The notes beneath the pieces were generated by a model, which saw only the letters and a list, made by a program, of their open reading frames with translations, did not search any database and was not told the DNA's origin. Of a DNA stretch of 64,000 bases, positions 14,723 through 16,405 are shown piece by piece. Location: the NCBI RefSeq assembly GCF_026013645.1, contig NZ_CP110224.1, positions 3,782,001-3,846,000 on the forward strand, given 5' to 3'. The number at the start of each line of letters is the position of its first letter. The stretch's first letter is position 1. The stretch comes from Virgibacillus natechei. Lineage in GTDB: Bacteria; Bacillota; Bacilli; Bacillales; Amphibacillaceae. The position numbers and the translations under genes were made by a program.

Positions 14723-14764
14723 AGGGTCAGTCCCCTAGGTGCTAAAGCACCGGGGGCTGACCCT
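14723..14764. repeat. REP-like element, compact complete copy
   Basis: AGGGTCAGTCCCCTAGGTGC, then TAAAGCACCGGGGGCTGACCCT: both arms with a shortened core that lacks the GTTAACGCAA part, making a tighter hairpin than other copies. It sits between the divergent-looking ends of the exporter operon and the mph gene. Confidence 0.7.
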
Positions 14765-14847: not shown

Positions 14848-15744
14848 TTACATTTCGCTAGCAAGCATGTGTGCAGCCGTTTCATGCATCTCTTGCAGAC
14901 CAGAAATTTCAGCAAATTCAGCTACAGTGATGCCGCTTGTTGTTAGAAGTTCTACAATATGCTCATCCATTCTTGGCCACGTTTTTCCACCGGCATTATC
15001 ATAAGCGTCGATTAAATTAGTTAATCCATCATTCCCAAAAAGGAGTTGATGTGACAAAAAATCTACAGACACATCAGCAATCCCCACTTCTGTCCAGTCA
15101 ATTAAGCCAGTTACTTGTTGATTTTTATTAATGAGGATATGACCCGGATGGAGGTCGCCGTGTTTTACCCCTACATGGGAAGGCCAAAGGGAGTCTTCCG
15201 CTAGCCATGTTTGCCAGCGATCCCATAAAATTGGATTGATCTCGTACTGTTCTTTTACACGTTCCATTCGCTGTTTCATGGAAGCTCTTAACTCACTGGC
15301 GCGAAGAATTTTAACTCCGGTATGTTTGAATGCACCGTGAGGAAATGAGTGTAAATCTGCTAGGGCTTTTCCTAATGACTTATAATACGCAGGTGGTACA
15401 TTAGATTCATCAAAACTCCATACATAGTTCTGCTGCTCTACATCAATCGTCGCTGCCGGAATTCCGCTTAATTGCTTATAAGCAATTAAATCTTCAGAGA
15501 AGATAGACCAATCCGGAACTTGAAAGCTAGCTTGGTGATGAATGATATCTAACGCTTTTTTCTCTTGTCGTGCATGTCGCATTGACTCTTGTCTGCGTGG
15601 GATTCTTAGGATCCATTTATTATCATGTTGATCTTTGGCGTAGGCTACTTGAAAATCCACACCGGACTCATTGATTTTGATTGTGCTTTCTACAATATCC
15701 AATCCTTTATTTGTTGCTAATTGTTTAATTTTAAGTGTATTCAT
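14848..15744 (-). CDS. mph: Macrolide 2'-phosphotransferase
   Basis: A 298-residue aminoglycoside/macrolide-phosphotransferase-fold kinase that would inactivate macrolides by phosphorylating the desosamine 2'-OH using GTP (Mph family knowledge). The Brenner motif is 'HGDLHPGHILIN' with catalytic Asp, followed by the metal-binding 'GLIDWTEVGIADVSVDF'. The N-lobe includes 'WILRIPRR' with the ATP/GTP-contacting Lys/Arg region. The start at 15744 was chosen because GGAGGAAAGAAAC precedes it; an ATG at 15759 lies inside that site. It follows the 3' remnant of an ABC-F gene and an ErmD-like leader, so it is probably induced by macrolides through attenuation. It most resembles the chromosomal mph genes of Bacillus (YcbJ-like). 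Confidence 0.88.
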   Translation of the reverse strand: MNTLKIKQLATNKGLDIVESTIKINESGVDFQVAYAKDQHDNKWILRIPRRQESMRHARQEKKALDIIHHQASFQVPDWSIFSEDLIAYKQLSGIPAATIDVEQQNYVWSFDESNVPPAYYKSLGKALADLHSFPHGAFKHTGVKILRASELRASMKQRMERVKEQYEINPILWDRWQTWLAEDSLWPSHVGVKHGDLHPGHILINKNQQVTGLIDWTEVGIADVSVDFLSHQLLFGNDGLTNLIDAYDNAGGKTWPRMDEHIVELLTTSGITVAEFAEISGLQEMHETAAHMLASEM

Positions 15745-15768
15745 GTTTCTTTCCTCCAAATGTTCATT

Positions 15769-15899
15769 TTAATGAATTTGTTTGATTCTTTTTTCTTGTA
15801 TATCATAACGATGATCTGCTGCACGCTTGACAAACTCACGGTCATGGCTAACCAATAAAACGGTTCCTCATCTTTTAATTCCAAAACTAGTTTTTCCAT
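15769..15899 (-). pseudogene. 3' remnant of an ABC-F ribosome-protection ATPase
   Basis: The minus strand encodes EKLVLELKDE, then after a one-base frameshift TVLLVSHDREFVKRAADHRY and DIQEKRIKQIH before a stop at 15769-15771. 'LLVSHDREF' is the H-loop and end of the second ATPase domain in ABC-F proteins (Vga/Msr/Vml type). Only about 45 of roughly 500 codons remain; a deletion has joined the upstream leader to this 3' end, and a missing G in a GGG run explains the frameshift. The remnant ends 25 bp before mph, so the ancestral operon was probably leader - ABC-F - mph. Confidence 0.75.
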
Positions 15900-15913
15900 T
15901 ATTATTTAATCAT

Positions 15914-15943
15914 AAAAAACCACAGACAGGCTACTGTCTGTGG
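15914..15943 (-). terminator. Intrinsic terminator in the macrolide leader (attenuator)
   Basis: The minus strand reads CCACAGACAG - 4-base loop - CTGTCTGTGG, a perfect 10-bp stem, followed by a T-run (TTTTTT). It lies upstream of the ABC-F remnant and mph but downstream of the leader peptide, which is the place expected for a conditional terminator. Confidence 0.75.
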
Positions 15944-16004
15944 TGAAGAGTAAACGAGGTATAGCAAATAGACGTCTTCCGATATATGAACGAAAAAAGG
16001 CATA

Positions 16005-16029
16005 CAAAAAAGACAGATGGATATCTGCC
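16005..16029 (-). terminator. Second hairpin with T-run in the macrolide leader
   Basis: The minus strand reads GGCAGAT-ATCC-ATCTGTC followed by TTTTTT. The arm ATCTGTC shares CTGTC with the stem of the terminator at 15914-15943, so the two could exchange partners. Terminator or antiterminator role is inferred. Confidence 0.55.
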
Positions 16030-16082
16030 TTTCTTCACGTAAAAATTGTATACTTCCCCGTAGAAGAATATTAAAAATGTGC

Positions 16083-16169
16083 AGACTACTCCCGTTTACT
16101 CTGTTTTATGAAAACAGAGCCTTTGAACATATTAAGTTACCTATTGTTCAAAGTTTGTTGGCGTAGTCT
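16083..16169 (-). promoter_or_regulatory. Structured leader region coupled to leader peptide
   Basis: On the minus strand AGACTAC (16163-16169), inside the leader-peptide codons for Arg-Leu-Arg, pairs with GTAGTCT (16083-16089). It encloses two hairpins: CTTTGAACA/TGTTCAAAG (arms at about 16121-16153) and CTCTGTTTT/AAAACAGAG (16099-16119). A ribosome stalled on the RLR codons would open the outer stem. This is the layout of drug-inducible erm leaders; the pairing was found by eye. Confidence 0.6.
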
Positions 16170-16184
16170 TCCTGAATGCATCAT
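16137..16184 (-). CDS. ErmD-like macrolide-sensing leader peptide
   Basis: A 15-residue ORF, MMHSGRLRQQTLNNR, beginning at 16184 with AGGAGGG (16194-16200) nine bases upstream. It aligns with the ErmD leader peptide (MTHSMRLRFPTLNQ, from memory) at M.HS.RLR..TLN. The Arg-X-Arg (RLR) motif is the known arrest sequence at which macrolide-bound ribosomes stall. The ORF overlaps the outer stem of the structured leader, so translation and folding are coupled. It is followed by two intrinsic terminators, then the ABC-F remnant and mph. Too short for ordinary gene finders. Confidence 0.75.
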   Translation of the reverse strand: MMHSGRLRQQTLNNR

Positions 16185-16218
16185 TTTTAATAACCCTCCT
16201 TTTCATAATATAAAATTT

Positions 16219-16247
16219 ACTTTACACTAACAATTAGTTATTGTCCA
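16219..16247 (-). promoter_or_regulatory. Candidate sigma-A promoter of the macrolide leader
   Basis: On the minus strand TGGACA (16242-16247) and TAAAGT (16219-16224) are separated by 17 bp, placing the start of transcription shortly upstream of the leader-peptide ribosome binding site. An alternative TTGTTA-N17-TATTAT lies slightly downstream but would start within that ribosome binding site. Confidence 0.45.
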
Positions 16248-16360: not shown

Positions 16361-16405
16361 AGGGTCAGTCCCCAAGTTACTAAAGCGTTAACGCAACGGG
16401 ACCTA
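16361..16405. repeat. REP-like element, degenerate copy
   Basis: AGGGTCAGTCCCCAAGTTAC then TAAAGCGTTAACGCAACGGGACCT: an intact left arm and core with a shortened right arm. It lies just downstream of helD. Confidence 0.6.

Follow-up and report, generated by a model that had tools for sequence, protein, structure and literature searches.

An RLR leader RNA ahead of a macrolide phosphotransferase gene in Virgibacillus natechei: a probable transcription attenuator with relatives before several resistance-type genes of Bacilli

The leader-mph unit of Virgibacillus natechei

The window (the whole stretch of 64,000 nucleotides analysed here, positions 3,782,001 to 3,846,000 of contig NZ_CP110224.1 of Virgibacillus natechei) carries on its minus strand, one after the other, a promoter, a Shine-Dalgarno (SD) sequence, a 15-codon open reading frame (ORF), a structured leader, the hairpins T1 and T2, a remnant of an ABC-F gene, and mph (Table 1). 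In the genome, a single contig of 3.87 Mb, the leader is present once; a second, weak match is its antisense. The encoded Mph matches NF038057 (MphL, the nearest NCBIfam model) over its full length with 544 bits, below the cut-off of 612 of that model, and PF01636 (APH fold) with 130 bits.

Table 1. Elements of the leader-mph unit in window coordinates
Feature	Position	Strand	Basis
Promoter-like -35 TGGACA / 17 nt / -10 TAAAGT	16219..16247	-	promoter scan; same place as the boxes of relatives
SD AGGAGGG of the leader ORF	16194..16200	-	conserved in alignment A1
Leader peptide ORF MMHSGRLRQQTLNNR, 15 codons	16137..16184 (ATG 16184, stop 16137)	-	
Conserved leader RNA	16063..16202	-	covariance models R1, R2
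P1: 16192-16182 (through AUG) with 16079-16069	16069..16192	-	
P2: RLR codons 16169-16163 with 16089-16083	16083..16169	-	
P3: 16153-16146 with 16128-16121	16121..16153	-	
P4: 16119-16111 with 16107-16099	16099..16119	-	
Candidate antiterminator AT1: 16085-16081 with 16028-16024 (5' arm of T1)	16024..16085	-	folding
T1 hairpin and U-run	16006..16032	-	structure; missed by consensus rules
Long-range helix PX: 16101-16093 with 15956-15948, just 5' of T2	15948..16101	-	folding
T2 intrinsic terminator (hairpin 15944-15919 and U-run)	15913..15944	-	terminator scan
52-codon open frame left from the two ends of an Msr-type ABC-F gene	15741..15899	-	
mph, macrolide 2'-phosphotransferase	14848..15744	-	profile matches

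The original prediction, made from the letters of this DNA, had described an unannotated 15-codon ORF with a good ribosome binding site and promoter, with its RLR codons in the outer stem of a structured leader. The ORF lies where it was placed, its RLR codons (AGA CTA CGC, 16169-16161) take part in the closing stem, and the SD is spaced 9 nt from the ATG. The promoter-like boxes are likewise present; the promoter scan of the region returned 11 sites where 5.2 were expected, so that the window promoter is weak taken alone. By eye, relatives with the same leader type carry at this place TTGACA (5/9) and TATAGT (8/9). Of the two intrinsic terminators proposed, T2 is a clear terminator found by the scan, and T1, a 10-bp hairpin with a U-run (16032-16009), is the weaker hairpin and fails both the scan and our own terminator rule. 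The further order, i.e., terminators, ABC-F remnant, and an intact mph, is as foreseen.

Two further features lie at the unit. The remnant frame closes with a TGA that shares bases with the start codon of mph (ATGA); if the frame is used, its translation could be coupled to that of mph. On either side of the unit, at 14724-14735 and 16362-16373, GGGTCAGTCCCC repeats as part of hairpin-like stretches; this exact 12-mer has nine copies in the genome, eight of them within the last 113 kb of the contig.

Conservation of the leader RNA and its peptide

The 140-nt window leader folds with -46.9 kcal/mol, compared to -21.0 (sd 3.2) for 200 dinucleotide shuffles (z -8.2), and its branched architecture is much alike in the leaders of relatives, with the exception of a shortened one (L014). 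An alignment of 100 leaders shows two-sided changes in 41 of the 51 pairs and a covariation score of 0.282 (slid versions, at most 0.074), counts which lean towards the structure to which the alignment was fitted. In an unfitted 15-row alignment, two-sided changes occur in 10 of the 51 pairs with a score of 0.170 versus at most 0.076, and one of five measures (further pair types) is no higher than in shuffles. Two covariance models were employed: R1, from 15 leaders including four MTHSM-type Planococcus leaders, and R2, from 100 chosen loci (alignment A3); alignment A2, with two antisense matches, was left out. The window leader, itself part of the R1 training set, obtains the top score of all against R1 (161.7 bits). 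Rfam 15 gave nothing above gathering score at the leader in the window and eight related loci; a sub-threshold greA match (E 0.75) overlaps the leader end in one locus (L089).

Conservation extends to the peptide. Among 15 loci from named records that encode relatives of the window Mph (72-91% identical), 14 have a leader ORF with an R/K-x-R motif, namely, nine of the MM[HP][SA]GRLR type, four of Planococcus (MTHSMKLRFPTLNQ) and one of Geosporobacter (MCGIFRSRLNTLCD); at the remaining locus (L008), no such ORF was found directly upstream of mph. In the covariance-model search of the order described below, 134 of 138 places hold an R/K-x-R/K ORF and four lack one by our rule, which also set the starts (some GTG or TTG). 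The motif is RLR in 122, RIR in seven, and RWR, RLK, RRR, RFR and RQR in one each, with the first basic residue at codon 6 (71 ORFs), 5 (53), 7 (4) or elsewhere (6). The first Arg is written AGA in 127/134. The Leu is written with five codons (CTA, TTA, CTT, TTG, CTG), as is the second Arg (CGA, CGT, CGC, AGA, CGG), and this variety points to selection on the peptide. In view of the conservation, a chance ORF was rejected.

A closely similar known system is the leader of ermD/ermK, for which transcription attenuation was reportedly described by Kwak in 1991 and Hue in 1992. At the ermD leader of Bacillus licheniformis (L223:3512-3647), R1 scores 120 bits (E 7.8e-26), and blastn aligns it with the window leader at 76.3% identity (E 7e-17); judged by these matches, the window RNA is homologous to the ermD leader. 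The ErmD leader peptide (ErmDL) was given correctly in the original prediction, since the leader ahead of a 501-nt region predicted as ErmD on the B. licheniformis plasmid pBL141-1 reads MTHSMRLRFPTLNQ. Common to both systems are the R6-L7-R8 register, the M-x-H-S-x-RLR..TLN peptide, the homologous RNA and, by eye, similar T1/T2 hairpins, so that the predicted ErmD type holds for both peptide and RNA. The window differs in having mph downstream, an ABC-F remnant in between, 76% leader DNA identity, and other peptide residues at positions 2 and 5. According to PMC8298421, the first R of ErmDL is at codon 6, and the RLR motif is dispensable for erythromycin stalling on ErmDL, to which the N-terminus contributes.

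Genes behind the leader in Bacillales and beyond

The R1 search of Bacillales, the order of the window, gave matches at 138 places in 120 of 397 genomes and 59 of 136 genera. The first gene was taken as the first ATG-started ORF of at least 80 aa that starts within 1.5 kb and falls into any of eight protein clusters; ORFs of other kinds ahead of it were skipped. It is Mph at 36 places, HflX at 26, Msr ABC-F and Mef-like MFS at 25 each, Erm at 10, RlmA/TlrB-like at 8, LmrB-like MFS at 3 and a sugar ABC transporter at 1, with none at four places, two of which are cut by contig ends. A macrolide/lincosamide-type class is thus the first assigned gene at 133/138 places, with HflX counted by analogy with HflXr. 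Each cluster takes its name from one or two of its members: the Msr, HflX and broad Erm models passed, and the Mef, LmrB and RlmA/TlrB models matched below their cut-offs. The sugar-type ABC transporter ATPase (RbsA/AraG-like; L059:736-2232), which follows an ermD-type RLR leader, is alone among the assigned first genes in falling outside the seven resistance-type classes.

With R2, matches were obtained in 86/398 genomes drawn from the class and 12/398 drawn from the phylum, both draws including the genome of the window and others of its order. At 60 places from the class and phylum draws, chosen by hand so as to span genera, the first gene is Erm (19), Mph (11), Msr (11), Mef-like (8), TlrB-like (5), HflX (4), LmrB-like (1) or unknown (1), and an R/K-x-R/K ORF is present at 53 and absent by our rule at seven. 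The original prediction had seen an erm-type sensor that now serves a different resistance gene. As a one-off move, this picture is not supported. The family is widespread, and within Bacillales erm follows the leader less often than mph, hflX, msr and mef do, although at the 60 hand-picked places erm is the commonest first gene.

Approached from the gene, the leader lies at most 2.5 kb upstream of 50 of the 72 mph places in the 397 Bacillales genomes (37 directly, 13 with a longer gap) and was not detected at the other 22. It precedes 21/22 genes whose Mph is at least 65% identical to that of the window (the window included), 18/23 at 50-64%, 11/23 at 40-49%, and 0/4 below.

Exchanges of the downstream gene do occur in the leader family, as two leaders that are 97% identical precede a Mef-like gene (L163) and an Mph gene (L165). 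In a tree of 205 leaders, the type of the downstream gene must change 54 times or more, versus 128.7 (minimum 119) with labels shuffled 200 times. This tree is drawn from only ~140 nt, 120 of its 202 inner nodes are weak (their contraction gives 61 changes), and a few loci are one place under two identifiers (e.g., L004 and L165, whose contigs are equally long), for which reasons the near-identical pairs are preferred as evidence.

The leader is also found on plasmids. Two largely overlapping searches matched 23 and 19 plasmid records, and in eight of them the surroundings of the leader were inspected; it stands before mef(F)-msr(G) in Macrococcoides and Lysinibacillus, mphN in Exiguobacterium, mph in Planococcus, and an RNA methylase followed by Msr in Priestia. 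On a plasmid record labelled Stenotrophomonas rhizophila (L225), it precedes an msr-type ABC-F gene. The YitT family is typical of Bacillota, and a YitT-family neighbour in this record casts doubt on its label or host. A Latilactobacillus plasmid typed as conjugative is an exception, with a weak match of 41 bits (L230:3473-3586) before an SDR oxidoreductase. Just upstream of one leader-mef unit, group II intron matches (L045:565-759 and 1310-1394) hint at mobility; phage records gave no match to the leader of this locus.

Ribosome cover, probable attenuation and the origin of the window copy

A ribosome stalled at the RLR codons was modelled by masking the RNA up to nt 35 of the ORF. P1 and P2 of the window leader then vanish, and the probability of PX rises from 0.00 in the free RNA to 0.78. 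AT1 has a probability of 0.00 in the free RNA, 1.00 in the masked RNA before the 3' arm of T1 exists, and 0.09 once this arm is present. Under the mask, T1 drops from 0.98 to 0.80 at its own end and stands at 0.96 by the end of T2, where AT1 is 0.00; T2 stays formed at equilibrium in every state (0.98-0.99). No thermodynamic switch is therefore seen in the folding runs, and a kinetic one is at best possible. The helices are unchanged when the mask is extended to the stop codon, so that timing must separate stalled from passing ribosomes. From the loss of AT1, the identical helices under both masks and the persistence of T2, we infer that control would be co-transcriptional and kinetic.

The helices were also followed across loci with a terminator found by our rule. 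Such a terminator is present in 101 of 128 leader-gene spacers versus 2.7 expected from shuffles, a count that omits 10 of the 138 places (four without a gene, six with a spacer below 40 nt). An expected number of at least four PX pairs is reached at 6/66 loci in the free RNA, 60/66 when masked, and 31/66 when masked with a shuffled partner. For AT1 the numbers are 6/63 free, 58 masked and 43 also with a shuffled partner, which makes it a soft test; the window falls outside these 63 loci because T1 failed the terminator rule, and is covered by its own folding run. In a duplex test, the natural pair ranked among the best 3 of 51 at 123/128 loci for P1/P2, 35/67 for PX, 21/64 for AT1 and 2/64 for a control pair, the shuffles being made per locus and thus ignoring relatedness; another run with a slightly different segment and shuffles gave 42/67 for PX. 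These tests are weak for Erm and HflX loci (AT1, 0/8 and 1/8; PX, 0/6 and 4/15, respectively). Pairing of the 3' arm of T1 with the 5' arm of T2 was weak and was rejected, with 8/30 loci versus ~1.8 by chance and 0.0 in the window.

Loci of different gene classes share PX, with compensating letters in its two strands, e.g., GAGTAAACG/CGTTTACTC in the window, GTAAATGG/CCATTTAC before hflX, and AGTAATCGGAT/ATCCGATTATT in L148. In the window, PX adjoins T2 without overlap, and by eye a PX strand of four Planococcus leaders overlaps the base of T2. That PX opposes T2 is a guess, helped by these four leaders.

The following course of events is proposed. Without drug, a ribosome would translate the 15 codons and leave, P1-P4 would close with the RLR codons paired to their downstream strand, and RNA polymerase would stop at T1 or T2. 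If the exit tunnel holds a macrolide or ketolide, translation would stall with Leu7 in the P site, a geometry borrowed from ErmDL, and the ribosome would cover P1, P2 and part of P3. The downstream strand thus freed might capture the 5' arm of the nascent T1, forming AT1. Next, the junction that follows P4 could form PX with the stretch that immediately precedes T2, and transcription would run on into mph. Drug stalling, read-through and the opposition of PX to T2 are what we infer in this scheme. With a leader, a closing stem and a terminator in front of mph, the predicted transcription attenuation is probable, and we give a probability of about 0.83 to the reading that the window leader is a macrolide-sensing transcription attenuator controlling mph.

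Access to a ribosome binding site offers another way to control mph, or formerly the ABC-F gene, and translational attenuation by ermC-type leaders is a precedent. It would agree with the persistence of T2 in the folding runs, and B. subtilis tlrB uses both modes (PMC6851288). In the window, however, the mph SD lies ~380 nt past the leader ORF, behind two hairpins, and does not take part in the predicted leader structure. Together with the terminators in most spacers, this makes translational control quite unlikely, and in its pure form it was rejected. The broken ABC-F gene and -35 and -10 boxes that differ from the commonest letters of relatives could also mean that the leader became a relic that regulates nothing after the ABC-F loss; this was rejected as very improbable, given that every helix is preserved, as are the ORF, T2 and the whole mph frame, and that the leader scores so high against R1.

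The origin of the window copy can be traced in its relatives. Two loci (L002 and L003) consist of the leader, an intact 487-aa ABC-F gene, and mph (91 and 90% identical). Of the L002-type ABC-F region, the window keeps a 35-nt head (94%) and a 124-nt tail (91%), with an internal deletion of ~1.3 kb (about 1.33 kb) relative to L002, and AAGGGAG, which stands ahead of the L002 ABC-F gene, is absent. ABC-F traces occur in 6 of 47 leader-mph spacers (the window and five others, of which L020 is marginal, E 0.006) versus 0 of 235 shuffled ones. The homology with the ermD leader and the near-identical leaders before different genes would also suit a direct capture of an ErmD leader by mph in the lineage of the window. 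This is a highly improbable course and was rejected, since the retained head and tail are those of the ABC-F gene in L002 and L003, and the window leader resembles that of an ABC-F-mph locus (L019, 95%) more closely than that of ermD (76%). The sequence comparison derives the window copy from an ancestral leader-ABC-F-mph operon, arranged as in L002 and L003, via a deletion inside the ABC-F gene, the loss of which made mph the first gene in this lineage.

Attenuation by RLR leaders is published for ermD/K (PMC8298421), mef(E) (PMC4335068) and hflXr (PMC6310831). As described in the latter, hflXr/rli80 of Listeria has a 14-aa RLR ORF, a terminator/antiterminator arrangement and drug-dependent read-through like that proposed here; its target is HflXr, and the likeness is one of description and not of sequence. 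The uORFC-6-1 motif, a structured uORF RNA with RLR found mainly in Bacillales, differs in its 51 examples being primarily upstream of hflX (PMC8632094), and going by that description it is probably the hflX branch of the RNA family of the window. The mef(E)/mel leader MTASMRLR also works by transcription attenuation, the likeness being at the peptide level; a table in PMC4335068 compiles resembling peptides from the leaders of mef, msr and erm genes, with no mph, hflX or tlrB among them. B. subtilis tlrB (yxjB) has an RxR stalling leader (MIIQFIRYR) before a TlrB/RlmAII methylase, with its motif at the C-terminus and tylosin rather than erythromycin as the drug (PMC6851288); it is likened to the window by peptide, which does not imply the same RNA. 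In staphylococcal msr(A)-mph(C), mph likewise lies behind a +x+ leader (MTASMRLK) and msr(A), but this leader is short and degenerate, msr(A) comes first and mph second, and R2 matches it weakly (25 bits, filters off, 601 bases searched).

The attenuation mechanism is hence known from ermD/K, hflXr and mef, and what is new is mph as a direct target and one RNA across gene classes; in open-licence PubMed Central, covered mostly as listings and without supplements, no paper was found that places such a leader immediately in front of mph or that joins the RNAs of these gene classes into a single family. The breadth of the family and PX, of which we met no earlier description, are the surprising parts. 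We consider it likely that one homologous RNA serves as a portable ribosome-stall attenuator cassette over the macrolide/lincosamide resistome of Bacilli (Mph, Msr ABC-F, Mef-like, Erm, TlrB-like, HflX, and LmrB-like), with repeated gene exchange and with PX acting on the promoter-distal terminator. Separate cases such as ermD/K, mef, msrA and hflXr would thereby become one testable RNA family, and the role of PX, a conserved helix, at a strong terminator can be tested directly. The covariance model can recognise hidden inducible resistance genes, and the family suggests that several resistance mechanisms could be induced at once by a drug under which ribosomes stall on RLR.
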